Origin: Rhodoferax sp.
GTDB lineage: Bacteria > Pseudomonadota > Gammaproteobacteria > Burkholderiales > Burkholderiaceae_C
Assembly (NCBI RefSeq): GCF_018063565.1
Contig: NZ_JAGPBB010000015.1
Span: forward strand, 1-54,021
Direction of reading: 5' to 3'
Length of the DNA: 54,021 nt
Made by a program: the position numbers and the translations under genes. Within the stretch, counting starts at the first letter, position 1, and every line of letters begins with the position of its first letter. The notes beneath the pieces were generated by a model. It was given only the letters and a program-made list of their open reading frames with translations, did not search any database and had not been told where the DNA came from. Of this stretch, positions 38,734 to 53,125 are shown piece by piece.

Positions 38734-39524
38734 CAAGCGACCCCGGATTTTAAGGGGACGAAGTGCACGGCTTCCATCACGGTCTGGCGCAAGCCTTGCG
38801 GGGTTTTATCAATCACCATCAGCACCTGCTGTCGGCCACCGGCAGCCGCCACCGGAGCCACCAGTCGCGCGCCCACGGCCAGTTGGTCTGTCCAGGCGCT
38901 GGGCACCGACTCGCCGCCCGCTGCCGCAATGATGCCCGCATAGGGAGCACCCTTGGCGTAGCCCACCATGCCGTCACCAAACAACAAATGCACATTGGCC
39001 AGACGCAGTGGCCGCAGGTTGTCACGCGCCTTGTCGTGCAGGCCACGCAGTCGTTCGATGGAATACACCTCGGCACAGAGTTCACTCAACAGTGCCGCCT
39101 GATAGCCGCAGCCAGTGCCGATCTCCAGCACACGTCCAAGGCGGGTGGTTTTACCCTGACACAACAGTTCGAGCATCCGCGACACCACGCCGGGCTTCGA
39201 AATCGTTTGCCCCAGGCCGATGGGCAAACTGGTATCCTCGTAGGCCTGATTGACCAGCGCCGTGTCGACAAACCGATGCCGCTCAACCCGCCCCATCGCA
39301 GCCAACACCTGTGCGTCGAGAATGCCCTGTTGTGCCAGTTTTTGCACCATACTTCGGCGCACCGCACTCGAATCCATACCCACACCTTGCGGAATCACCG
39401 TGAGCAAAGGATGGTTGGACGGCATGGAGCGCGGACTGGTCGGACGCGCCGAACTGACGGCAGTTCTAAGCTGAACCGGAAAGCCAGGGCGCCGCTTGGC
39501 ACCAGGCTTGGCGCTGCCCGTCAT
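38733..39524 (-). CDS. pcm: Protein-L-isoaspartate O-methyltransferase
   Basis: Repairs isoaspartyl residues in aged proteins using SAM. The 263-residue protein has an N-terminal extension of about 50 residues, then VRRSMVQKLAQQGI, YEDTSLPIGLGQTISKP, motif I VLEIGTGCGYQAALL and the acidic SAM ligand in VYSIERLRG. The ATG at 39524 overlaps the surE stop as ATGA and is preferred to a start 16 codons upstream. It is the second gene of surE-pcm-nlpD. Confidence 0.94.
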   Translation of the reverse strand: MTGSAKPGAKRRPGFPVQLRTAVSSARPTSPRSMPSNHPLLTVIPQGVGMDSSAVRRSMVQKLAQQGILDAQVLAAMGRVERHRFVDTALVNQAYEDTSLPIGLGQTISKPGVVSRMLELLCQGKTTRLGRVLEIGTGCGYQAALLSELCAEVYSIERLRGLHDKARDNLRPLRLANVHLLFGDGMVGYAKGAPYAGIIAAAGGESVPSAWTDQLAVGARLVAPVAAAGGRQQVLMVIDKTPQGLRQTVMEAVHFVPLKSGVA

Positions 39525-40297
39525 CCGCCGCGCCCCATACCGCTGGACAGTCGCGCCGCCGTTTGTGCCCAATATCCCAGATGGTCATGGTCGGTCAGGT
39601 CAACCTTCAAAGGTGTCATGGCGATATGACCTTGCGCGGTGGCATGAAAATCCGTGCCATCCGCATCGTCTTTGGCAGCCCCGGCGGCGCCAATCCAATA
39701 CATCGTCTCGCCGCGTGGGCTCAGTTGGGTGATTACCGGCTCAGCAGCATGGCGGCGCCCAAGCCGGCACAGCTTGAGATGACCCATCTGTGCCAATGGC
39801 AGGTTGGGAATGTTGACATTGAGCAACCACGCACTGCTGCCAACCAGATTTTGCGCTGCCATTTGCAGCACCAATTCACGCGCTTTGGTGGCCGCAGCGT
39901 CCAAATGATGCCAGTCCCGCTCAACCTGTGAGAACGCGATCGACGGAATCCCAAACAGGTAACCCTCCATTGCCGCCCCGACGGTGCCGGAGTAAATGGT
40001 GTCGTCACCCATGTTGGCACCGTTGTTGATGCCCGATACCACCAGATCCGGGCGATAGTCCAGCAGGCCCGTCAAGGCAATGTGCACACAGTCCGCCGGT
40101 GTGCCATTGACAAAGCGAAAGCCATTGCCGGCGCGGTGAACATACAACGGTGAATGCAGGGTCAACGCGTTGGACTTGGCGCTGTTGTTCTGCTCCGGCG
40201 CAACCACCTCGACTTCGGCGATATCTTTGAGCGCCTCGTAGAGCGCAACAAGACCCGGAGCCTGGTAGCCGTCGTCATTGGAAATGAGTATTTTCAT
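39521..40297 (-). CDS. surE: 5'/3'-nucleotidase SurE
   Basis: A 258-residue metal-dependent nucleotidase of stationary-phase survival. It starts MKILISNDDGYQAPG with the metal-binding Asp8-Asp9, followed by APEQNNSAKSNALTL, VSGINNGANMGDDTIYSGTV and the C-terminal LTDHDHLGYW. It is the first gene of the surE-pcm-nlpD operon and overlaps pcm by four bases. Confidence 0.97.
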   Translation of the reverse strand: MKILISNDDGYQAPGLVALYEALKDIAEVEVVAPEQNNSAKSNALTLHSPLYVHRAGNGFRFVNGTPADCVHIALTGLLDYRPDLVVSGINNGANMGDDTIYSGTVGAAMEGYLFGIPSIAFSQVERDWHHLDAAATKARELVLQMAAQNLVGSSAWLLNVNIPNLPLAQMGHLKLCRLGRRHAAEPVITQLSPRGETMYWIGAAGAAKDDADGTDFHATAQGHIAMTPLKVDLTDHDHLGYWAQTAARLSSGMGRGG

Positions 40298-40365
40298 GGA
40301 GTTGCCCTTTGCTGCCGAATTGTAGGGGTCGAACCCAGCCGCCTGATCGCTGCAAGGACGCCTGT

Positions 40366-41262
40366 TCAGGCCGATGAAGGAACAAATGCCCGTCGCAAAA
40401 AATCAACGATCTGCGGCAACTCCTCGTGCAATGCATCACTGGGATCATGTCGCCCTGGCACAGCCATCAGGGTCGCGACGCCCGGTCGAGCTGCGTCAAG
40501 AATGCGCCTTGCGTCATCAAACGGCACCATTTCGTCTTGCGTACCATGGACCAGCAAGACCGGGCATGAGACCCGTCCGATCGAGTGGAGTGGTGCAATA
40601 TCGCCAAAACAGGCCCCAATCACTTTTTGCACGTGGCGCAACACATACCAGCCGATGACAAAGTATGGAACATGGTGGTCAGCCAAGAACCGTCGCATCA
40701 CCTCCTGTGGATGGGCGAAGGCACTGATGCTGACGACCGCCCGCAGTCTTGGCGAGCGTGAAGCGCACAAGAGTGCCGCACCCGCGCCGACAGAGTGCCC
40801 AATCACCGCGAGACGCGACCGGTCCACTTGGGGCTGGGCTGCCAGCCAGTCAAGTCCAGCCTCGATGTCCTGAGCAAAGCGTGGCAGCGAAGTGAACGGC
40901 TCATCGTCGCTCAAACCATGACAGCGCGCATCGAGCAATAGCACTGAGTAACCGGCGGCCCTGATGGGCGCGATGCAGGCTGACATCATGGCTGCATTGG
41001 CACCCCAACCATGCATGACCAGCACCGCAGGCACCACAGAATCATCCGGCAACGCAGAGAACCAGCCAAACAAGGATTTGCCTGAGGTGACGCGACATCG
41101 GACCCCGACGCCAGCCGGATCAAGGGCAGCCAATGGCTGCGCATGGCCGACGCGCGGGGCGCGCAAGCCGCGCAAAATCAGACGGTGGGCCAGGAAACGC
41201 AGCCCGTACAAGGCCAGCCCCAATGTGGCGGCCAGCCACATCCAGGACCCCGCACCCTCCAT
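40366..41262 (-). CDS. Membrane-anchored alpha/beta hydrolase
   Basis: A 298-residue protein with an N-terminal hydrophobic segment (about 7-27) and a serine-hydrolase fold: VLVMHGWGANAAMMS as oxyanion loop, the nucleophile in GHSVGAGAALL, the acid in LVHGTQDEMVP and the histidine in VPGRHDPSD. The substrate is unknown. It starts 24 bases after the stop of ccoG on the same strand, so it may be the last gene of the Rieske-globin operon; a 68-base gap separates it from surE downstream. Confidence 0.87.
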   Translation of the reverse strand: MEGAGSWMWLAATLGLALYGLRFLAHRLILRGLRAPRVGHAQPLAALDPAGVGVRCRVTSGKSLFGWFSALPDDSVVPAVLVMHGWGANAAMMSACIAPIRAAGYSVLLLDARCHGLSDDEPFTSLPRFAQDIEAGLDWLAAQPQVDRSRLAVIGHSVGAGAALLCASRSPRLRAVVSISAFAHPQEVMRRFLADHHVPYFVIGWYVLRHVQKVIGACFGDIAPLHSIGRVSCPVLLVHGTQDEMVPFDDARRILDAARPGVATLMAVPGRHDPSDALHEELPQIVDFLRRAFVPSSA

Positions 41263-41286: not shown

Positions 41287-42723
41287 TCAGTTGGGCACGA
41301 TAAAGGTCGATTTCTCGATCAGTTTGCCTGGGCTGTCCAGCGACTCGATTTCAAAGTGAATTTCATGCGAGCCGGCGCTGGCGGCACCAAAATCAGCCTG
41401 TACCCGAACCGGTATGGTCACGGCCTTCGTCGATTCCACCTTGACAGTGGTGTCCGAGGTGATGACCAAACTCGGCAACCCGTTGACGGAGAACCGGTAA
41501 TGTTGGTCGGTCTCCGTCGCGTTCATCACCTGCAAGCGGTAAACGTTTTCTGTTTTGCCTGCATCGACCACCCGCGCCATGACACCGCGGTCCCGTACCA
41601 CATTCACCTTGAACGGCGTGCGCATGGCGAGACTGATGAAGATCGCCAGCACGATGGCGGTAAGAATGCTGGTGTAGACCAGCACCCGCGGCCGCAACAC
41701 ATGCCGCATGGTCTGCTTGGAACTCCAATGGTTTTTCATCGCGTTTTCAGTCGAGTACTTGACCAAACCACGCGGGTAACCCACCTTGTCCATCACCGTG
41801 TCACAGACGTCGGCACAGGCACCACAGCCAATGCACTGGTACTGCAGGCCATTGCGGATGTCGATCCCGGTCGGGCACACCTGCACACATAGACTGCAAT
41901 CCACACAGGCGCCCAGATTGAGTTTGCTCGGGTCGGCCTTTTTCGAGCGTGCACCGCGTGGCTCACCGCGCTCAGCATCGTAAGTGACGATCAGGGTGTC
42001 CTTGTCAAACATGGCGCTTTGAAACCGCGCGTACGGGCACATGTGCAGGCACACCTGTTCACGCATGAAACCGGCGTTGCCATAGGTCGCAAAGCCGTAG
42101 AAAAATACCCAGAAAAACTCCCAGGCGGCCAGCTGACCACCCATGAATGCCCCCGCCATTTCACGCATCGGCACAAAGTAACCCACAAACGTAAACCCGG
42201 TCCAGAACGAAAACGCAATCCAGAGGAAGTGTTTTGCCGCCTTGCGCGCCAGCTTTTCGCCCGACATACCCGCTTCATCACGACGCATGCGCGCGGCGCG
42301 ATCCCCCTCGACCAGTTTTTCGAACCAAAGGAAAATCTCGGTGTACACCGTTTGCGGGCAGGCGTAGCCGCACCACAGGCGCCCGGCCACCGCGGTGAAC
42401 AAGAACAGCGACAAGGCCGCAATGATCATCAATCCGGTGAGGTAAATAAAGTCCTGCGGGTACAACACCAAACCAAAGATGTAAAAGCGGCGCACACTCA
42501 AGTCAAACAACACCGCCTGACGCTGTCCCCATTCGATCCACGGCAGGCCATAAAAAATGATCTGCGTGACCCAGACCATGATCCAGCGCCAGTTGGAAAA
42601 TACCCCTGAAACACTGCGCGGATAGATCTTCTTGTGCGCTGCGTACAGCGAAATCATCTCCTCTTCGGGCTCAGCAGCGGCGATGGGAATCACCTTCTTG
42701 CCGTCTTTCGTGCTGTTAGTCAT
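41287..42723 (-). CDS. ccoG: Cytochrome oxidase accessory protein CcoG (FixG/RdxA)
   Basis: A 478-residue membrane ferredoxin needed for copper delivery to cbb3 oxidase in other bacteria. Several membrane helices lie in the first 230 residues, with the heme-free cysteine motif GRLWCGYACPQTVYTE, then two 4Fe-4S motifs (ACVDCSLCVQVCPTGIDIR and QCIGCGACADVCD), another helix and a C-terminal immunoglobulin-like domain. ccoG normally accompanies ccoNOQP; here no oxidase genes are near. It starts three bases after the ETHE1-like gene, in an operon with globin and Rieske genes. Confidence 0.95.
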   Translation of the reverse strand: MTNSTKDGKKVIPIAAAEPEEEMISLYAAHKKIYPRSVSGVFSNWRWIMVWVTQIIFYGLPWIEWGQRQAVLFDLSVRRFYIFGLVLYPQDFIYLTGLMIIAALSLFLFTAVAGRLWCGYACPQTVYTEIFLWFEKLVEGDRAARMRRDEAGMSGEKLARKAAKHFLWIAFSFWTGFTFVGYFVPMREMAGAFMGGQLAAWEFFWVFFYGFATYGNAGFMREQVCLHMCPYARFQSAMFDKDTLIVTYDAERGEPRGARSKKADPSKLNLGACVDCSLCVQVCPTGIDIRNGLQYQCIGCGACADVCDTVMDKVGYPRGLVKYSTENAMKNHWSSKQTMRHVLRPRVLVYTSILTAIVLAIFISLAMRTPFKVNVVRDRGVMARVVDAGKTENVYRLQVMNATETDQHYRFSVNGLPSLVITSDTTVKVESTKAVTIPVRVQADFGAASAGSHEIHFEIESLDSPGKLIEKSTFIVPN

Positions 42724-42726
42724 GTG

Positions 42727-43359
42727 TCATTCCTCTAAAGTTGGTGTGAGTATCTGTTGTTCTGGAAGGGCCGCCATGTGCGCGAGGAATTCGTCGCGCG
42801 TCAATCCGGAAAAAAACGGATGCCAGCGGCGTTGCTCCAGTACGGTGCTAACCGCCCGCGCACGCCGCTCATGTCCGGCAAACAACAAAGTTTCATCCGG
42901 AAGTGTAAAAACTTTCTGCGTCACGCTGTCCCACAAGTCCTGGGGTGCCTGTGGGCGCGGTTGATGTGGGCAGGCGGTCACCGCCAGCAAGCCGCCGCAA
43001 AAAAACCTGTCGCGCCAGGAAAAGCTCAGGCAGAAGCGGGTGTGCCCCGGCGTGGACACCACATGAATCAGCTCGTCACCAAACGGCAAGACCGACGCGC
43101 TGACGGGGTCAGCCGAATCACCTTGCACCACAGGCGCGGCCAGACGTGCCAGCAGGGCGGGCTCGCGCCGCTGCATATCGTCATGGTGATGGGTGCGCAA
43201 AATCCAGCGCAGACGCAGGTCACGCTCGGACAGCAGAGCGTGCAGAACCGGCAGATCGCGACCGTGCGGGTCGATCAGTACCGCTTCGCGAGCGCTCGGG
43301 TCAGCCAGCAGGTAGGTCAGTTCACCGCTGGCGTCATCGTTCAATATTCTGAAGTACAT
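42727..43359 (-). CDS. ETHE1-like metallo-beta-lactamase-fold protein with missing metal ligands
   Basis: A 210-residue protein that aligns along its length with the persulfide dioxygenase ETHE1 as I remember that family (STPGHTRFCLSFSW, KVFTLPDETLLFAGHE). The metal sites are altered. The HxHxDH motif reads HHHDDM (57-62), with methionine for the last histidine. His106 is kept. The aspartate that binds iron (GDALL in ETHE1) is glycine (CGGLL, Gly123). His57, His59, Asp61 and His163 remain. It may be inactive, bind metal differently or have a non-enzymatic role. GGAGG precedes the ATG at 43359, so this start is chosen over one 36 codons upstream. Confidence 0.85.
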   Translation of the reverse strand: MYFRILNDDASGELTYLLADPSAREAVLIDPHGRDLPVLHALLSERDLRLRWILRTHHHDDMQRREPALLARLAAPVVQGDSADPVSASVLPFGDELIHVVSTPGHTRFCLSFSWRDRFFCGGLLAVTACPHQPRPQAPQDLWDSVTQKVFTLPDETLLFAGHERRARAVSTVLEQRRWHPFFSGLTRDEFLAHMAALPEQQILTPTLEE

Positions 43360-43388
43360 GCGCGGCCTCCGGACTGTCTCAGGTTGTA

Positions 43389-43811
43389 TCAATGCGCGGA
43401 GCAAGACGATGCGTCGCCAGCGTTCAAAAGATGATCCGCCATCTGCCCAAAGGTCTCGAGCAGCCATTGCCGGAACACCAGGTCAGGCACCTGCTCGGAG
43501 ATGGCTTGTGTCATGCACAACATCCACTCGTCACGCACCACCTGGTTCACCGTGTAAGGTGCATGACGCATGCGCAGGCGCGGGTGGCCTTTCTTTCGCT
43601 CATACAGGGGTGGCCCACCCAGCCAGCCCGATAAAAACTCAAACAGGCTTTGCGCGCTGCCCGTCAGGCTCTCGGGGTGCATCTGGCGCACGGTATAGGC
43701 CTCAGGCAGTTCATCCATCAGCGCGTAAAAGCGCGAGACGAGCTGACGAATGCCCGCCTCTTGACCCAGGCGTTCGTATGGCGTCACGACAACTGCAGTA
43801 TTCATGTTCAT
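43389..43811 (-). CDS. Group II truncated haemoglobin
   Basis: A 140-residue globin of the truncated group II type. FEFLSGWLGGPPLYERKKGH and PRLRMRHAPYTV contain the proximal histidine (His83), and VRDEWMLCM contains the tryptophan at G8 (Trp96) diagnostic of the group. Such globins bind oxygen and NO; detoxification or redox roles have been proposed. The C-terminus ends SSCSAH with one cysteine. The start overlaps the Rieske gene stop as ATGA, and the ETHE1-like gene follows after 29 bases. Confidence 0.92.
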   Translation of the reverse strand: MNMNTAVVVTPYERLGQEAGIRQLVSRFYALMDELPEAYTVRQMHPESLTGSAQSLFEFLSGWLGGPPLYERKKGHPRLRMRHAPYTVNQVVRDEWMLCMTQAISEQVPDLVFRQWLLETFGQMADHLLNAGDASSCSAH

Positions 43812-44434
43812 GCCACCTTGTCTTCGCCAATCAGCAGCCGACCATCGGAAAGGTATTTGTGGGGCGGCACTTCCAGATTGGTCGGGGCCGGCTTGTTCTT
43901 GAAGACTCGACCCGCAAGATCAAAGGTCGAGCCGTGACAAGGGCAGAAAAAACCGCCCTTCCAGTCGGCACCGACGCTCGGATTGTTGGTGCCGGCCGGT
44001 ACCGACGTGGGTGAACAGCCCAGGTGGGTACAAATGCCCACCGTCACCATGAACTCAGGCTTGATGGAGCGATGGGCGTTTTGTGCGTAATCAGGTTGCT
44101 GGGACTTGACTTCTGAGGCTGGATCCACCAATTGGCTGTCAAGCAAGGGCAGCGAGGCCAGCATTTCAGGGGTTCGTCGCATCACCCAAACGGGTTTGCC
44201 TCGCCACTCGATGGTCTTGACGGCCCCCACCGCGATGTCTGAAATATCGGCCTCAACCGCTGCACCCATGGCCAGCGCCCGCTCGCTGGGGGAAAAACTC
44301 GCCACCAACGGCAGTGCCACTGCGCCTGCAGCCACTGCACCAGCGGTAGCCGTCAGAACAAGCATTCTGCGCCGCTCTGCATCGTGCTCGTGTGAATTGG
44401 CTGCCAGCGCATCAAAGGTGTTCACAGTCGTCAT
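43808..44434 (-). CDS. Rieske iron-sulfur protein of the cytochrome bc1 type, without b and c1 genes
   Basis: A 208-residue protein. A twin-arginine-like N-terminus (RRRMLVLTATAGAVAAG) forms the single membrane anchor (about 25-48). The Rieske domain has CTHLGC (135-140) and CPCHGS (164-169): cluster ligands Cys135, His137, Cys164 and His167, disulfide pair Cys140/Cys166. It is of the ubiquinol-cytochrome c reductase type, yet no cytochrome b or c1 gene follows; instead the next gene is a globin, overlapping by four bases. It may be a second, special-purpose Rieske protein. The ATG at 44434 with GGAG upstream lies about 19 bases after the predicted sigma54 start site. Confidence 0.92.
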   Translation of the reverse strand: MTTVNTFDALAANSHEHDAERRRMLVLTATAGAVAAGAVALPLVASFSPSERALAMGAAVEADISDIAVGAVKTIEWRGKPVWVMRRTPEMLASLPLLDSQLVDPASEVKSQQPDYAQNAHRSIKPEFMVTVGICTHLGCSPTSVPAGTNNPSVGADWKGGFFCPCHGSTFDLAGRVFKNKPAPTNLEVPPHKYLSDGRLLIGEDKVA

Positions 44435-44463
44435 CAGGTACTCCAGGAAAGACCAACGTATCA

Positions 44464-44479
44464 ATCAATAATCGTGCCA
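44464..44479 (-). promoter_or_regulatory. Sigma54 (-24/-12) promoter of the Rieske-globin operon
   Basis: The minus strand reads TGGCACGATTATTGAT. TGGCACG matches the -24 element perfectly; TTGAT matches the -12 element except A for C in the GC. The spacing from the GG to the -12 G is the required 11 bases. Transcription would start near 44453. The divergent gene encodes a sigma54 activator. Confidence 0.72.
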
Positions 44480-44544
44480 CCCCCGTTAAACAAAGAACAT
44501 CAAATGAATTCATATACTTAGCAAACAAAACAACCCCAATATGG

Positions 44545-44601
44545 CTGGCAGGAGCATCGCCAGGTTCTGCCAGATATGACAGACTGGCAGTCATCTGGCA
44601 T
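44545..44601. promoter_or_regulatory. Putative enhancer: CTGGCAG/CTGCCAG inverted-repeat cluster
   Basis: Four half-sites: CTGGCAG (44545-44551), CTGCCAG (44567-44573), CTGGCAG (44584-44590) and CTGGCAT (44595-44601). The second and third form a perfect seven-base inverted repeat with a ten-base spacer; ATGAC/GTCAT arms are nested around the third. The cluster lies about 65-120 bases upstream of the -24 element, a normal enhancer distance, and ends 11 bases before the activator ATG, which allows autoregulation. Confidence 0.6.
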
Positions 44602-44612
44602 AAACTTGCCGC

Positions 44613-45974
44613 ATGAAACCGCTTCCCGAACTGATGTCGTTCCTGGAGGGCTTGCCCGAGCCCCACATTTTGTTTGACACGCAATACCGAATTCTGGCCG
44701 CCAACGCGTCGTACCGGCGCCAGTTCAGCCCTGATCGCAGCGTGGTCGGGCGGACCTGCTTTGAGGTGTCTCACCATTTCAGCGTGCCGTGTGATCAGGC
44801 GGGTGAATCGTGTCCACTGGTCAAGGCGCGCGAGTCGGGCCAACGCGAGCGGGTGCTGCACCTCCATCACACCGCCAAAGGTGAGGAGTATGTCAATATT
44901 GAGCTGGCACCGCTGCTCAATGCCGATGGGGAGCAGGCGTTTTTTGTTGAGAAAATGGAGTCGTTGCGCGTTGCTCAGGGCCAGGCAACGGCCCAGGGGC
45001 TGATCGGGCGTTCAGCGGTGTTTCAGCACATGCTGTCGCTGGTGGCGCGGGTGGCGCCGGCCATGGCGACAGTTTTGCTGCTGGGAGAGTCGGGCACCGG
45101 CAAGGAACTGGTGGCACGCGCCGTACACGAGGCCAGCAGTCGCTCGCAGCGGGCGCTGGTACCGGTCGACTGCTCCAGTCTGCCCGAGAACCTGTTTGAG
45201 TCCGAACTGTTTGGCCATGAGCGTGGCGCATTCACCGGCGCCAATACCGCCCGTGGCGGCCTGGTCGAGGCTGCCAGCGGCGGCACGCTGTTTCTGGACG
45301 AGGTGGGTGACATTCCGCTGACCATGCAGGTCAAGCTGCTGCGGTTGCTGGAGACGGGTACCTATCGCCGCGTCGGCAGCACCGAGCAGCGTCATGCCGA
45401 CATCCGCGTGGTCTCAGCGACCCACCGTGATCTCGATCAGATGGTGGTGCAAGGTCGCTTCCGCGAAGACCTGTACTACCGCCTGAGCACCTTTCCCATC
45501 CACCTGCCGGCCTTGCGGGAGCGCCGCGACGATATCTCGCTGCTGGCCATGGCCCTGCTCAAACGGGTCGCGGCACAGCGCAAGCTGGGCATCAGCAACG
45601 CAGCATTGAACCTGCTGCAAGCTCAGGACTATCCTGGCAATGTGCGTGAACTGCGCAACCTGCTGGAGCGTTCGGCCCTGCTGTGCGACGGCAGCACACT
45701 CGACGCCACCCACGTCGAACAGGCCCTCAGGTCCGGCCGGCGTCCGCCCGTTTCTCCTGCACGAGAGCACGATGCCCCCGGACCACTGCCATTTGCCAGC
45801 GGAGCCAGTGCCAAGCCGACCTTCGCCGTCCCTGGTGGCCTCAAGTCAGCCGAACACGCCGCACTGAGTGAAATACTCAAGGCCCATCCCGGCAGTCGAG
45901 CTGAACTGGCGGCGCAACTGGGCATCAGCGAGCGTTCACTGTATCGAAGGATCAAGGCTCTGAAACGATCTTAG
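44613..45974 (+). CDS. Sigma54-dependent activator with a cysteine-rich PAS domain
   Basis: A 453-residue bacterial enhancer-binding protein. The PAS domain (about 8-115) has cysteines at 49, 60 and 67 and histidines at 54 and 55 ([19 protein letters not shown]), a possible metal, Fe-S or redox site. The AAA+ domain (about 130-365) has Walker A GESGTGKE, the sigma54-contact loop GAFTGA (205-210) and Walker [12 protein letters not shown] Fis-type helix-turn-helix (about 425-451, [20 protein letters not shown]) ends the protein. It is divergent from the Rieske operon, which has a sigma54 promoter, so it is probably its activator. The stop codon lies at the edge of an interspersed repeat. Confidence 0.93.
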
Positions 45975-47859: not shown

Positions 47860-49395
47860 TCAAGCGCTCTGGCGCGACTGGGCCGGTCTTGAAAGCGGTC
47901 TTTTGCGAGCAGGACGTGGCTTGCGTCCACGTGCGGGCGACACCTTTGGCACCGGCAACAGCGCTGGCCCCAGCAGCCCCAGGTACTCTTGAAAACTGTC
48001 CCGCAAGCACTGCGCCAACACCTCTGGATCAGGCAATTGTTCGTAACAGGCGGTAAACGAGATCACCAGCATCTCGTTGTAACTGGTGACGGAAAACACC
48101 AGCCCCATGCCATCGGCAATCGGCATGATGGCCGACAGGTACGTCAGGCGTGCGCCTTTCAGGTACAGCGCCGCCTGCGGCCCCTGCACATTGGTGATGC
48201 TGCAATTGGCCAGCGGTGTCCAGTCGCCCAACCGTGCCGATGCGGCCCGCATCATCTTGCTGGTGGCGGCAATGGCCAGCGCCGGGGCCTGGCTGGCCAG
48301 GTCGGTCAGGCCACGCGCATGGGCAGCCTGGTCCAGCACTTCGTTCGACGAGGTGGTGGCGGCAATGGCTCGCAAGCGCTTGAGCGCGTCAGGCTCGTCG
48401 GTCTGCAATCGCACCCTCACCCACGAAAACGCGTCCTGTGCTGATCCTTTATCGGTGTGGACGGCAATCGGCGCGGCCGCCAGCAGGCTTGCAGCGGGCA
48501 GCTCGCATTGCAATTCCAGATAGCGGCGCAAGCCGCCGGCGCACACTGCCAGCACCACATCGTTGATCGTCGCACCATCGACCAGCGTCTGGATGCGTTT
48601 GCATTCGGCCAGCGCAAAACGCCGCGTATCAAAGACCCGGTGTGCCGAAACCACGGTGTTAAAGCGGGTGACCGGAAAGTCATGCGGGCGGCGCCAAAAC
48701 TCGCCCGCCAGCGTCTTGACGGTCAACGCCATCATGCCCAGCCCCTGCGACACCGAGCCAGCCAGACGCATCGGGAAACTTGCCGCATGAAAACCGGCAC
48801 GCCACATCAGCGCCAGCGTGCCCGGTGGCGACTGCGCAAACCACGGCCGCGGTGGAGGGTCCGGCGGCGGGTCGGGTGTCAGGTCGTGCAGCAAACGGGT
48901 GATTTCGTGGTCGTGCGCCACATCCACCGCCGCATGGTGCACCTTGAGCAAGACTGCAAAGCTGCCCACCGGCAGGTCAAGAAAACTGTCCAAGCCCTCG
49001 ATCACATACATTTCCCACAAGGGCCGCTGCAGGTCGAGTGGCCGCGCATGGATGCGCGAGGCCTGGATGCAGAACTGGCGCCAGTCACCCGGCTTGGGCA
49101 GCGCGATGTGGCGCACGTGGTACTCGATGTCAAAGTTCTCGTCTTCCACCCAATACGGGTAGTCCAGGTCCAGCGGCACGCGCAGGATCTTTTGCCGAAA
49201 AATGGGCAACTGGCTCAGGCGGTTTTCCAGGTGCGTCAAAATCTGCTTGAAGCGCACCACACCGCCCGGTGCCGTGGTTTGGTCATAAATATGCAGCAAC
49301 GTGACGTTGGAGTTGGCATGCTCGGAGTCAGAGTAAATAAACGCGGCATCACTTTCACCAAGCTGGCGCAAGGGCGTTCGAGGGGCATGTGGCAT
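47860..49395 (-). CDS. WS/DGAT-family acyltransferase with altered active-site motif
   Basis: A 511-residue protein of the wax ester synthase/diacylglycerol acyltransferase family, which esterifies acyl-CoA with fatty alcohols or diacylglycerol. Seen: PLDLDYPYWVEDENFDIEYH, RPLWEMYVIEGLD, the active-site region KVHHAAVDVAHD, TINDVVLAVCAGGLRRYL and the C-terminal SITNVQGP. The catalytic HHxxxDG is HHAAVDV (His153, His154, Asp158, Val159): both histidines and the aspartate are kept, the glycine is not. Basic C-terminal tail. It starts four bases after the lipase-like gene. Confidence 0.92.
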   Translation of the reverse strand: MPHAPRTPLRQLGESDAAFIYSDSEHANSNVTLLHIYDQTTAPGGVVRFKQILTHLENRLSQLPIFRQKILRVPLDLDYPYWVEDENFDIEYHVRHIALPKPGDWRQFCIQASRIHARPLDLQRPLWEMYVIEGLDSFLDLPVGSFAVLLKVHHAAVDVAHDHEITRLLHDLTPDPPPDPPPRPWFAQSPPGTLALMWRAGFHAASFPMRLAGSVSQGLGMMALTVKTLAGEFWRRPHDFPVTRFNTVVSAHRVFDTRRFALAECKRIQTLVDGATINDVVLAVCAGGLRRYLELQCELPAASLLAAAPIAVHTDKGSAQDAFSWVRVRLQTDEPDALKRLRAIAATTSSNEVLDQAAHARGLTDLASQAPALAIAATSKMMRAASARLGDWTPLANCSITNVQGPQAALYLKGARLTYLSAIMPIADGMGLVFSVTSYNEMLVISFTACYEQLPDPEVLAQCLRDSFQEYLGLLGPALLPVPKVSPARGRKPRPARKRPLSRPAQSRQSA

Positions 49396-50226: not shown

Positions 50227-51759
50227 TCAACCCTTTACAGACGATGAGTTCCCCAGCTTTGCAGCTGGTTTGGCGGGAGGCTGGCGCCCTTGCTTGGCTT
50301 TGGCCGGCATGAGCGCAGCCGCCTTGAGTTCGGCATAGGCGAGCATGAAGTCGTCAGCCAGCAGCCGTACATCGGGCACGGCACAGCGTGCCACGGTAAA
50401 ACCCAGGTACACCCGCCCGGCGTAGCTCATCAGCGTGATGTTGAGCCCCACGCCGTGCTCCACGATCGACAGCGGCCAGTAACCGGTCATGCGGGCTTGC
50501 CCCACATACAGTGGCACGGCCGGACCCGGCACATTGGAAATCAGCACATTGGCCAGCGGTGGCAATACCTCAGAGACGCCACCGCGGCCATACAGGTTTG
50601 CCAGGGCACCCATCAGCCACGGCACGCCAATCGAGGGGAAGTCGGTGGGAATCACCGACTTGGCCCGCCGCGCCACCGCCTTGGTGGCCGTGGTATTGCC
50701 ACGCACCGCCTGCAAGCGCTTGAGCGGATCTTTCAGGTGTGTGGCCAGGCTGACCAGGCTCAGCGTGGCCTTGGTGTGAAACCCAGTGTCTCCCTTGTCG
50801 CGCAACGAAATCGGCATTGAGGCGATCAGCGACTTTTTGGGCAGCGTATCGTGGCGTGCCAGGTAGCGGCGCAGCGCACCGCCACACAGCGCCAGCACCA
50901 CGTCATTGACGGTTGACTCGGTCGCCGCGGCAATGGCCTTGACTTCAGCGAGTGCCACCGACTCGGCGGCAAACCCGCGATCGCGGGTGATCGCCACATT
51001 GAGCGGCGTGCGCGGCCCAAACGCCATGCGGCTACGGCCAGCCTTGTGACCCGACCCCGCGCTTGCCGCTCTTGTATCGACGTCGGAGTGTTTGTCACCC
51101 GAACTGCGCACCAGCCCGGCCAGCGTGCGCACCACCCCCGGCAAGTCGCGCACCAGTTTGACGTATTGCGTCGCATCGTGGCGAAACGCGGCTGCCACCA
51201 GCTTGAGCGCACCCGGCTTGGCGCTCGATACAGTGGGCACAAACGACTCGACATTGGCCTCCAGCGCGTGTGGCGCCGTGTCAAACAAGGCAGCCGCCAG
51301 CGCACTGCCCGCCTGCCCGTCGAGCATGGCATGGTGAATCTTGAAGTAGTAGGCGCGCTCGCCGTTGGCCAGGCCGTCGAGCACATACATCATCCACAAG
51401 GGCCGCGAGCGGTTGAGCAAATCGGCGTGCAGATTTGCCACCACCACCTCGAGCTGCTCGCGCCCGCCTGGTGCCGGAATATGAATACGCTCGATATGCT
51501 GGTCCAGGTCAACTTCACCATCGAGCCACACCGGATTGGCCATTTGCAGCGGCATTGCGCCCAAGCGCCGGCGCAGCACCGGCACCATGCGCTGGGACAG
51601 CAGTACTTTGACATCCGTAAAGAAATCTCCGCCATAGTCAGCCGGTACCACAAAAGTGTGAAGCGAACCCACGTGCATGGGCGTGGCCAGGGTCTCAAGG
51701 TTCAAAAAAGCGCCATCCAGGCCGGTCAGAGCCTCAACATCGGAGCGTGATGGATTCAT
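50227..51759 (-). CDS. WS/DGAT-family acyltransferase with intact active site
   Basis: A 510-residue member of the wax ester synthase/diacylglycerol acyltransferase family. LTGLDGAFLNLETLATPMHV is the family start, followed by RPLWMMYVLDGLANG, the intact catalytic motif HHAMLDG (His142, His143, Asp147, Gly148), STVNDVVLALCGGALRRYL and NVLISNVPGP. The tail after about 490 is lysine/alanine/proline-rich. It starts 13 bases after the S41 peptidase gene; ATG 51759 is preferred because the longer frame begins with TTG inside that gene. It is probably the active neutral-lipid synthase of the operon. Confidence 0.94.
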   Translation of the reverse strand: MNPSRSDVEALTGLDGAFLNLETLATPMHVGSLHTFVVPADYGGDFFTDVKVLLSQRMVPVLRRRLGAMPLQMANPVWLDGEVDLDQHIERIHIPAPGGREQLEVVVANLHADLLNRSRPLWMMYVLDGLANGERAYYFKIHHAMLDGQAGSALAAALFDTAPHALEANVESFVPTVSSAKPGALKLVAAAFRHDATQYVKLVRDLPGVVRTLAGLVRSSGDKHSDVDTRAASAGSGHKAGRSRMAFGPRTPLNVAITRDRGFAAESVALAEVKAIAAATESTVNDVVLALCGGALRRYLARHDTLPKKSLIASMPISLRDKGDTGFHTKATLSLVSLATHLKDPLKRLQAVRGNTTATKAVARRAKSVIPTDFPSIGVPWLMGALANLYGRGGVSEVLPPLANVLISNVPGPAVPLYVGQARMTGYWPLSIVEHGVGLNITLMSYAGRVYLGFTVARCAVPDVRLLADDFMLAYAELKAAALMPAKAKQGRQPPAKPAAKLGNSSSVKG

Positions 51760-51772
51760 ACCGTGCTGCCCG

Positions 51773-53125
51773 TCAATCGGCTCGCATTCCGACAAAACCG
51801 CCGGGTTCTATCACCGCTCTGGCCGCCGCGGCTTGTGGCGCGGCCAGCGCACGCCGTTGCAAACCCGAATCGCTGGCTGTGGCCGGGCACTGCCCACTGA
51901 CCAGGTACTGGCTGGCGGCAGCCAGCAGCTTCTCAGACGGGTCACCCAGAGCGCCGGCAAAATCTTCAGCCACGGCACACGTGGGCGACAGGCCGTTGTA
52001 ATAGCGCCCTTCACCAAGCGCATTCAGCGCCTCAAAGTTGACCGCGCTCAGCGTGCTGTCGCAGTGGTCCACGGGCGTGAAGCCCACCGGTTTGCCACAA
52101 GTGGTCTCGCCCAATGTGACCACCTGCACATATGGTTTGAGGCCATTGGCCAGCAGTTCACTGGCCGAGCAGGTGCGCCGACCGTTCAGTATGACCACGC
52201 GTGAGAACCCGTTGCTGCTGGCGTCAAGCCAATAGTTGACGTCGGCACGGTTTTGCAGCGGGTTGTAAACCAGTGCAGTGAACAGTTTGCCGCTGTGCGC
52301 CTGCCCTGCCACCAGGGACGCCAGCGCGTCGGCGACCGAAATCAGTCCCCCTCCGTTGTAGCGCAAATCCACCACCAGTTCACTGGCTCCTGCCGCGCTA
52401 AAGGCAGCAAAGGCACTGGCCAGCGGGCTGCGCGCCTGGGTCACAAAGTCTTTGAGCATCAGATAGGCCACACGTCGACCGTTGGGCAAATCCAGCACGC
52501 GCGATACCGGCACCGGCGTCAATGCGTAAGTAGCCGCCACCACCGCAACGGACCGACTGCCCGTCGCCGCGGCAATTTGCAGCGAGAGTGTGTCGCCCAC
52601 CTTGGCGGGGCTTAACACCGAAAAGTTGCCGGAGGCCAACACATCGGCCACACTGACTCCGTTGATCGCCAGAATCTCGTCGCCACGCATCAGGCCAGCC
52701 ACTGCTGCCGGACTGCCCGGATCCACCCACCGGATTTTCAGTGGCAATTGACCCTCCAGCGCATTCACCGCTACGCCATAACCCAGCGTTGTGCCTTCTT
52801 CAAAAAACTGCTCGTAGGCAGCCCGGTCCGCGAGGTAACTCCAGCGGTCCGCCGGCGTCTGGGCATTGCCGGCAAACAGCAGGGTTGAGAAATAACTGCT
52901 CAAGCTCTGTTCGGCCAGGGGTGCCAGATCAGGTGCCACACCTGACCAAAAGTAGGTCTGGCGCATGGTGTCGCGCAGCCAGGTCTTTTGTACCGAGACA
53001 TCACAGCTGTTGGCAACCGGCGTGGTCGGTGCCGGGTCAGCACCGCCGCCACCACAACCTGCCAGGGCCGCCACTGCCACGCACAGCATCGTCCTGGCAC
53101 AACACATTTTAAAAAAGTACTTCAT
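51773..53125 (-). CDS. S41-family peptidase lipoprotein with PDZ domain
   Basis: A 450-residue envelope protease. Signal peptide with lipobox AALAGC (Cys24), followed by GGGG and a proline-rich linker. A PDZ-like domain (about 125-205) contains IRWVDPGSPAAVAGLMRGDE and ILAINGVSV. The S41 core has LVVDLRYNGGGLISVADALA, a nucleophile segment RRTCSASELLANGL and a lysine in TTCGKPVGF, so the Ser-Lys dyad appears present. Many cysteines in the catalytic half suggest disulfides. It is the first gene of the minus operon that continues with WS/DGAT genes, and is divergent from tetR over 76 bases. Confidence 0.92.
   Translation of the reverse strand: MKYFFKMCCARTMLCVAVAALAGCGGGGADPAPTTPVANSCDVSVQKTWLRDTMRQTYFWSGVAPDLAPLAEQSLSSYFSTLLFAGNAQTPADRWSYLADRAAYEQFFEEGTTLGYGVAVNALEGQLPLKIRWVDPGSPAAVAGLMRGDEILAINGVSVADVLASGNFSVLSPAKVGDTLSLQIAAATGSRSVAVVAATYALTPVPVSRVLDLPNGRRVAYLMLKDFVTQARSPLASAFAAFSAAGASELVVDLRYNGGGLISVADALASLVAGQAHSGKLFTALVYNPLQNRADVNYWLDASSNGFSRVVILNGRRTCSASELLANGLKPYVQVVTLGETTCGKPVGFTPVDHCDSTLSAVNFEALNALGEGRYYNGLSPTCAVAEDFAGALGDPSEKLLAAASQYLVSGQCPATASDSGLQRRALAAPQAAAARAVIEPGGFVGMRAD

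Follow-up and report, generated by a model that had tools for sequence, protein, structure and literature searches.

The 54,021-nucleotide stretch of Rhodoferax sp. DNA analysed here (contig NZ_JAGPBB010000015.1 of assembly GCF_018063565.1; hereafter the window) carries a compact minus-strand module that encodes an orphan Rieske protein, a truncated haemoglobin, an ETHE1-like metallo-beta-lactamase (MBL) protein and the cbb3 oxidase assembly factor CcoG, divergent from the gene of a sigma54 activator. By comparison with related loci, we consider it rather likely that this module is an operon under a FisR-type, sulfane-sulfur-responsive sigma54 activator that re-equips the bc1-cbb3 respiratory chain, here without detected cydAB, persulfide dioxygenase (PDO) and SQR-like partners. 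Reactive sulfur is the probable trigger of the gene set, whose products would serve as spare or repair parts of the aerobic respiratory chain, and the window module appears to be a reduced form of a larger operon for sulfide defence that occurs in the order. Its elements are the following (positions in the window):

40366-41262, minus strand: alpha/beta-hydrolase gene (open reading frame and Pfam matches), 24 bases past ccoG, probably the final gene of the operon
41287-42723, minus strand: ccoG (rdxA/fixG), gene of a cbb3 assembly factor (NCBIfam TIGR02745, 525 bits; cut-off 317)
42727-43359, minus strand: gene of an ETHE1/persulfide-dioxygenase-like MBL protein, with Gly123 in place of a ligand Asp (profile search of the Protein Data Bank [PDB], Foldseek, column counts)
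43389-43811, minus strand: gene of a predicted group II truncated haemoglobin (PF01152; class read from the nearest PDB chains, 4uur and 2xyk)
43808-44434, minus strand: gene of the orphan Rieske protein (petA2), with a twin-arginine translocation (TAT)-type N terminus (TIGR01416, 214 bits; PF10399, UCR TAT-signal; trees)
44464-44479, minus strand: candidate sigma54-type -24/-12 site, TGGCACG-ATTA-TTGAT, its first base 45 bases before the Rieske start (upstream-region pattern)
44567-44582, no strand assigned: enhancer-like palindrome, CTGCCA-N4-TGACAG on the plus strand, proposed activator site (alignment consensus of 40 upstream regions; own-genome scan)
44613-45974, plus strand: gene of the sigma54 activator, PAS_4 + Sigma54_activat + HTH_8 (Pfam), with GAFTGA present and C49, C60 and C67 invariant in relatives

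The module and its activator recur in Burkholderiales

A preliminary description of this DNA had recognised four closely packed minus-strand genes, with junctions of -4 (Rieske/globin), +29 (globin/MBL) and +3 bases (MBL/ccoG), and a divergent sigma54 activator, all of which is borne out by the open reading frames and family matches. It had overlooked the alpha/beta-hydrolase gene downstream of ccoG. In 21 of 134 sequences examined, a relative of this hydrolase gene is found no more than 400 bases from a module gene. The TauE-type exporter gene that three loci (L032, L033 and L034) have right after the module hydrolase is absent from window positions 39521-41262. L032, from the cultured Rhodoferax antarcticus ANT.BR, reads activator-Rieske-truncated globin-MBL-CcoG-hydrolase-TauE.

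From the 334 relatives that a globin-based scan of named genome contigs yielded, we retained the 80 best as related loci (L031-L110). Targeted tblastn searches and a simple gene caller based on codon usage served to locate their genes; all-against-all clustering of open reading frames was swamped by spurious high-GC frames. In these best 80 of 334 loci, a sample biased by the finding route and with many contigs cut, we counted the activator 54 times, the MBL protein 51, cydB 46, cydA 45, a YbgE-like protein 42, the Rieske protein 41, the hydrolase 28, an SQR-like flavoprotein 25 and ccoG 20 times. The nearest named relative, Rhodoferax sp. Gw_Eff_bin_490 (L031), shares 85-95% protein identity with the window for activator, Rieske, globin, MBL and CcoG and 73% for the hydrolase. 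Because the gene set recurs together with the activator in named Burkholderiales loci, it is not a product of chance, and an arrangement private to this strain, which the preliminary description had allowed for, is rejected. An activator orthologue (at least 76% identity, three partial) is present in 22 of 35 genus-group genomes, the own genome counted, and the module-type Rieske protein (at least 73%) in 7 of 60 genomes examined, all 7 from the window's genus, so that the Rieske gene is an optional member of the set. No description of this gene combination was found in the literature searched, which mostly did not extend to subscription papers.

The claim that no cytochrome b, c1 or oxidase gene accompanies the module stands for the window: neither CydA nor CydB is encoded anywhere in it, no cytochrome b or c1 gene lies within 9 kb of its activator, and the three COX1-family genes of the own genome all sit on other contigs. 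For the relatives the oxidase part of this claim fails, as cytochrome bd, and not a haem-copper oxidase, often belongs to the unit there. Among the 82 activators of the family outside the window (83 with the window included; neighbourhoods are 9 kb throughout), 43 have cydA in their neighbourhood; in the set of 83, cydA is the commonest first tested gene facing the activator (36 loci, Rieske in 16), and cytochrome b and c1 were each found in 0 of 83 loci. The module cydA product is a strong match to cytochrome bd subunit I and is joined in example loci by CydP (above cut-off) and a YbgE-like protein. Locus L204, the most informative example, reads activator-cydP-cydA-cydB-ybgE-PDO-truncated globin-rhodanese-SQR-like, the PDO occupying the place of the window's ETHE1-like gene, and L142, from the same genus, continues CcoG-truncated globin-rhodanese-PDO-TauE.

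The activator is probably of the FisR type and its family often lies among sulfur genes

The window activator has an AAA+ sigma54 domain with GAFTGA and a Fis-type helix-turn-helix, the architecture of FisR-type regulators, to which it likely belongs. Six residues, C49, C60, C67, H54, H83 and H85, show no variation among 51 activators (the window and 50 loci of L031-L110; sequences below 50% identity or 85% coverage excluded). C49 and C60 lie 11 residues apart and thus match C53 and C64 of Cupriavidus pinatubonensis FisR, which we compared by cysteine spacing only; its third cysteine is C71. This FisR is described as reacting with sulfane sulfur to form a tetrasulfide between C53 and C64 (PMC8614764).

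We then searched the activator neighbourhoods for sulfur genes, namely those for SQR-like, PDO, TauE, flavocytochrome c sulfide dehydrogenase (FCSD), octaheme tetrathionate reductase (OTR), rhodanese, DsrE2-like and HdrA-like proteins (tblastn, E<=1e-12, at least 40% of the query). The labels of the rhodanese, TauE and FCSD queries come from Pfam and that of OTR from an NCBIfam match above cut-off, the PDO label is that of the dioxygenase part of Blh (413 bits, under the full-length cut-off), and those of the SQR-like and DsrE2-like queries rest on sub-cut-off matches. At least one sulfur gene was found near 56 of the 82 activators, and a requirement of at least 40% identity left 53 of 82 (cydA, 38 of 82) in 1.13 Mb of neighbourhood; in the control stretches of the own genome, which are shorter than the activator neighbourhoods (129 kb), 0 of 19 had such a match and a single FCSD match was seen at 34%. 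In an activator-based search of the order, 48 of 250 genomes matched; among twenty neighbourhoods picked from it, a sulfur gene occurs in 9 and cydA in 5. Loci from this search carry PDO (L196, L198), OTR and cytochrome b (L197, L208) or an SQR-like gene (L205). Thus sqr- or pdo-type neighbours are present in some relatives (L142, L196, L198, L204, L205) and are not found within 9 kb of the window activator. A paralogous activator of the own genome (56% identical, Cys motif shared) lies opposite DsrE2-like and HdrA-like genes (contig C179, near 54326-59014; L131), and the same arrangement occurs in G021:C215 (L132), with an OTR gene nearby. NifX-like genes were seen near the activator family in L201, L210 and L214.

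These neighbourhoods bear on a different signal, nitric oxide (NO) or low oxygen, in which case the globin would detoxify NO or deliver O2, CcoG and the Rieske protein would support a high-affinity chain, and the activator would sense NO or redox state in the manner of NorR. Both NO and low O2 do have links to truncated globins and bd oxidases, the activator has NorR among its sub-cut-off NCBIfam matches, and the own genome has a norB-looking COX1-family gene with norC-like and NnrS-like neighbours (labelled by eye, with sub-cut-off NCBIfam matches only). However, NO genes are rare where sulfur genes abound: near the 83 activators we found NorB once, NorC and NnrS never and CcoN once (the NorB and CcoN matches in one locus), versus sulfur genes near 56 of 82. 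Moreover, the activator sensor matches PAS_4 and has conserved Cys and His residues, whereas NorR uses a GAF domain. On the near-absence of NO genes from the activator family, we reject an NO module and judge this explanation unlikely. NorB, NorC and NnrS were labelled by eye, as were the CcoH-like, CcoO, CcoP and aa3 assignments below and a molybdopterin oxidoreductase of L215.

Cyanide is another respiratory poison against which a bd oxidase, a rhodanese and spare chain parts could protect. The bd oxidases resist cyanide. MpaR-CcoN4 of Pseudomonas aeruginosa is described as a cyanide-inducible system with an orphan oxidase subunit (PMC10790758). But the TauE, PDO, FCSD, OTR, DsrE2-like and HdrA-like neighbours indicate sulfur (cyanide-specific enzymes were not searched for), and a cyanide response seems very improbable to us. 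The unit proposed in the preliminary description, an inducible electron-transfer or gas-response unit for NO, low oxygen or reactive sulfur, fits these results, reactive sulfur being the best of the three signals by neighbour genes; its inducibility is still a prediction.

A candidate sigma54 promoter and an upstream palindrome precede the module

We scored sigma54-type sites in 44 upstream regions, those of 43 loci and of the window: the best site averaged 12.8 toward the operon, compared to 11.1 on the opposite strand and 10.7 in shuffles. The pattern [TAC]GGC[AG][CT][GA]-N4-TTG is found in 40 of the 44, against a base rate of 0.10 per kb and strand in control DNA; the window's candidate promoter is TGGCACGATTATTGAT. 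The aligned 40 upstream regions share the palindrome CTGCCA-N4-TGGCAG, whose window copy lies 88 bases from the promoter site. With its correct spacing, the upstream palindrome and the conserved position, the arrangement is a predicted sigma54 promoter with an enhancer, and the own genome has one RpoN gene. An alternative candidate on the plus strand, TGGCATAAACTTGC, was dropped, since it runs up to the activator start and has a spacing that is too short by one base.

A scan of the own genome with TGYCAN4TGGCAG returned 22 matches versus 8 for the reversed control pattern. Nineteen of the 22 lie well inside genes as called by codon usage. Besides the module copy, the other two are one just before the homologous start of the paralogous activator, which the caller's longer start would cover, and one on contig C173 (C173:4342-4356, L195), located 100 bases from a strong -24/-12 site, TGGCACAAGGATTGCT, before a NifX-like gene.

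The same elements accompany candidate target genes that are detached from the activator and would be controlled in trans. Detached module-type cydA genes have the promoter at -226 to -230 in four of five genomes with the activator (G021, G032, G004 and G030), joined by the palindrome (at most two mismatches) in G021, G004 and G030, and in G009 both sites, separated by 86 bases, precede an MBL-ccoG pair that lies about 240 kb away from the activator. Conversely, no promoter precedes module-type cydA in either of two genomes in which no activator orthologue was detected (G001, 98% complete; G016, 82%) or the other cydA type in any of five genomes that have the activator. In G016, TauE and PDO genes adjoin ccoG and no promoter faces them; upstream of ccoG in G011 there is a palindrome with one mismatch and no promoter pattern.

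The module Rieske protein is a paralogue of the petABC subunit

The module Rieske protein has the intact cluster motifs CTHLGC and CPCHGS and the TAT-type N terminus of bc1-type Rieske proteins, and its gene stands without cytochrome b or c1 alongside. A second Rieske gene of the own genome belongs to a petA-cytochrome b-c1 (petABC) set on contig C179. The module gene is thus a paralogue and not the sole petA of the genome, a case that the preliminary description had named as speaking against a dedicated module and that is rejected here. A first tree set 44 module rows apart from 23 petABC-type rows of the genus (100/98); in another, which had 18 petABC-type sequences and drew 13 of these from other families, all module Rieske proteins but that of L201 fell into a single clade of 20 rows (100/99) (petABC-type rows besides those of G000, the own genome, and G023 are presumed from the best petA match). 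In L201 (G238), the Rieske gene adjoining the activator family belongs to another lineage and was apparently recruited separately.

Rubrivivax gelatinosus is described as having two Rieske proteins, one encoded outside petABC, that are interchangeable in the bc1 complex (PMC6256036, PMC4013037), and because of this precedent we infer by analogy that the module Rieske protein may function in a bc1 complex as well. The Rubrivivax loci that we examined carry module Rieske genes.

The module holds the only ccoG detected in the genome

With TIGR02745 above cut-off, a 4Fe-4S dicluster and FixG_C, the module protein has the marks of CcoG/RdxA/FixG, described as a cupric reductase in cbb3 biogenesis (PMC8267372). 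It is no spare copy: a search of the own genome at E<=1e-30 detected no other ccoG. The cbb3 operon of the own genome reads ccoN (783 bits, above cut-off)-ccoO-ccoP followed by a ccoH-looking gene, with no ccoG between them. In four relatives ccoG comes directly after ccoP, and no promoter of the above kind faces these four genes. Two further COX1-family genes of the own genome are, by eye, of the aa3 and NO-reductase types.

The ETHE1-like protein appears to be a conserved variant with an altered ligand

The ETHE1-like protein has no Pfam match and only sub-cut-off NCBIfam matches. A 17-sequence profile (the window protein, the PDO of L204, whose inclusion favours ETHE1/PDO matches, and 15 out of 44 MBL proteins whose length was suitable) retrieved from the PDB by hmmsearch 9rhq (3.8e-60), Myxococcus xanthus ETHE1 (4ysb, 5.9e-49) and human ETHE1 (4chl, 8e-38), ahead of glyoxalase II. 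The top Foldseek matches of an AlphaFold model were likewise ETHE1/PDO entries; the model is of moderate confidence (predicted local distance difference test, pLDDT, 75.9) and informs on the fold only, not on the metal site. The protein is accordingly modelled with the MBL fold of the ETHE1 group.

The metal ligands of the persulfide dioxygenase PaPDO are given as His71, His146 and Asp163 (PMC12856154). At the aligned positions of 51 MBL proteins (50 loci of L031-L110 plus the window, those below 40% identity or 85% coverage excluded), H57 is kept in 50 and H106 in 51, while position 123 is Gly in 48, Asp in 2 and Ala in 1. By this alignment the 2-His-1-carboxylate triad is incomplete, Asp being replaced by Gly123, and because one defining ligand is missing we do not claim membership among active persulfide dioxygenases. 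On the other hand, C121, C130, H59 and H106 are invariant in 51 of 51, so that the protein, called degenerate in the preliminary description, looks like a conserved variant and not like the outcome of random decay.

Some loci deviate in this gene. L054 and L107 (Ottowia thiooxydans) encode the only 2 of the 51 MBL proteins that keep the ligand Asp (FCGD), along with the extra Cys. In L038 (7835-8477) the gene is in two overlapping reading frames, possibly through a frameshift; this locus is outside the count set, and L057, with a stop near the end, was counted and left out of the profile alignment. In L250 (G007), from a genome in which no activator orthologue was detected, the MBL gene that precedes ccoG is fragmented.

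Other features of the window

Rfam and tRNA scans of the window gave no matches. Genes at 47860-49371 and 50227-51795 encode what we take to be relatives of wax-ester-synthase/DGAT-type acyltransferases; the first reads HHAAVDV where, as we presume, the usual motif ends in DG.

Weighing a proposed sulfur-responsive operon

Several observations weigh against a sulfur-responsive operon of the FisR type. In the own genome (G000, 92.8% complete) neither CydA (E<=1e-10) nor PDO (E<=1e-20) was found, nor was the module SQR-like protein (E<=1e-10; other SQR types may be present, as far as a TIGR03169 scan shows). No tested sulfur gene lies within 9 kb of 26 of the 82 activators, that of the nearest relative L031 included, many of these contigs being cut; the control stretches are short, and the counts in L031-L110 are no random sample because the loci were found through the globin. 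On the promoter side, the -12 element ends in A, G or T instead of C in most regions, in neither L131 nor L132 does the promoter pattern occur facing the DsrE2-like gene (its single match in L132 has the opposite orientation), the detached module-type cydA of G012 is without a promoter, and the best palindrome at that of G032 has three mismatches. The pattern alone is not specific, because it occurs twice before petA1 of the petABC set of G023 (L255, G023:C9, 1921 and 1989), inside the upstream gene and without a palindrome; these matches may be due to chance or hint at a sigma54-linked petABC. Finally, FisR of Acinetobacter baumannii is described as lacking the sensor cysteines, yet it controls a PDO-SQR operon (PMC7315123).

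That CydA, PDO and the SQR-like protein were not found in the genome also speaks for a remnant, that is, a sulfide-oxidation operon stripped of its enzymes in the window lineage whose leftover genes are on their way out, as do the missing TauE gene and the fragmented MBL gene of G007. But the module reading frames are all open, its promoter site and palindrome are retained, the four Cys and His positions of the ETHE1-like protein are kept in every relative counted, and ccoG is absent from the cbb3 operon and found only in the module, so that we regard decay as distinctly unlikely. Genes for FCSD and for DsrE2-like and HdrA-like proteins are present in the own genome, which makes sulfide oxidation by other routes likely there; electrons from it would enter at cytochrome c.

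In the sulfur-responsive operon that we favour, persulfide or polysulfide would modify cysteines C49 and C60 (and C67) of the activator's PAS domain, and the activator, bound to CTGCCA-N4-TGGCAG, would drive transcription by RpoN polymerase from the -24/-12 site upstream of the Rieske gene, both sites being predicted by comparison. The Rieske protein would then serve as an alternative subunit for the bc1 complex encoded elsewhere, CcoG would maintain the delivery of copper to the cbb3 oxidase when sulfide sequesters the metal, the globin would handle O2, NO or sulfide, and the ligand-swapped relative of persulfide dioxygenases may bind or process persulfide. In relatives the regulon often adds a bd oxidase and sometimes SQR-like and PDO genes, of which the window genome would have kept the part for the bc1-cbb3 branch. 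Ancestral targets may have linked sulfide oxidation to the bd oxidase, the bc1-cbb3 parts being gained in Comamonadaceae and relatives. A bolder version, possible but doubtful, is a sulfide-inducible isoform of the bc1-cbb3 chain, in which the sensor swaps in a dedicated Rieske protein and copper reductase plus a new persulfide-handling MBL protein with Cys replacing the ligand Asp.

Sulfide is described as an inhibitor of haem-copper oxidases, and the known bacterial answers described are its oxidation (SQR, PDO) and cytochrome bd. The module hints at one more such answer, controlled by a regulator of this type, namely the re-equipping of the bc1-cbb3 branch. It would extend the reach of FisR-type regulators to respiration, offers a testable explanation of why betaproteobacteria have orphan Rieske genes, places the only ccoG of a genome outside cbb3 control and brings to light a conserved relative of PDO whose metal site is altered.

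Comparison with known systems

The closest parallels are the FisR operons of C. pinatubonensis and A. baumannii, which, as far as they are described, share with the window a divergent sigma54 activator of sulfide or persulfide genes and, for C. pinatubonensis FisR, the spacing of 11 between the first two cysteines. In A. baumannii, sulfide is described as raising cydAB transcription (PMC7315123). They differ in their targets, which in the window are Rieske, truncated haemoglobin, PDO-like protein and CcoG, often with cydAB in addition in relatives, and neither an sqr-like gene nor a ligand-complete pdo was found in the window's genome. As an orphan Rieske gene outside petABC, the module gene resembles petA2, the second Rieske gene of R. 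gelatinosus reported by Ouchane et al. (2005). With the ETHE1 and persulfide dioxygenases (4ysb, 4chl, 5ve3) the window protein shares fold, sequence family and two His ligands; unlike them, its family has Gly for the third ligand Asp in 48 of 51 and mostly lacks the last His of HxHxDH, and the PDO of L204, 41% identical to the window protein, keeps all ligands and has Thr where the window protein has Cys121. MpaR-ccoN4 of P. aeruginosa, as described, is likewise a poison-responsive regulator that drives an orphan part of the haem-copper chain through a palindromic site; there, however, the poison is cyanide and not sulfide, the regulator is of another family, and the part is an oxidase subunit instead of the Rieske protein and CcoG encoded here.

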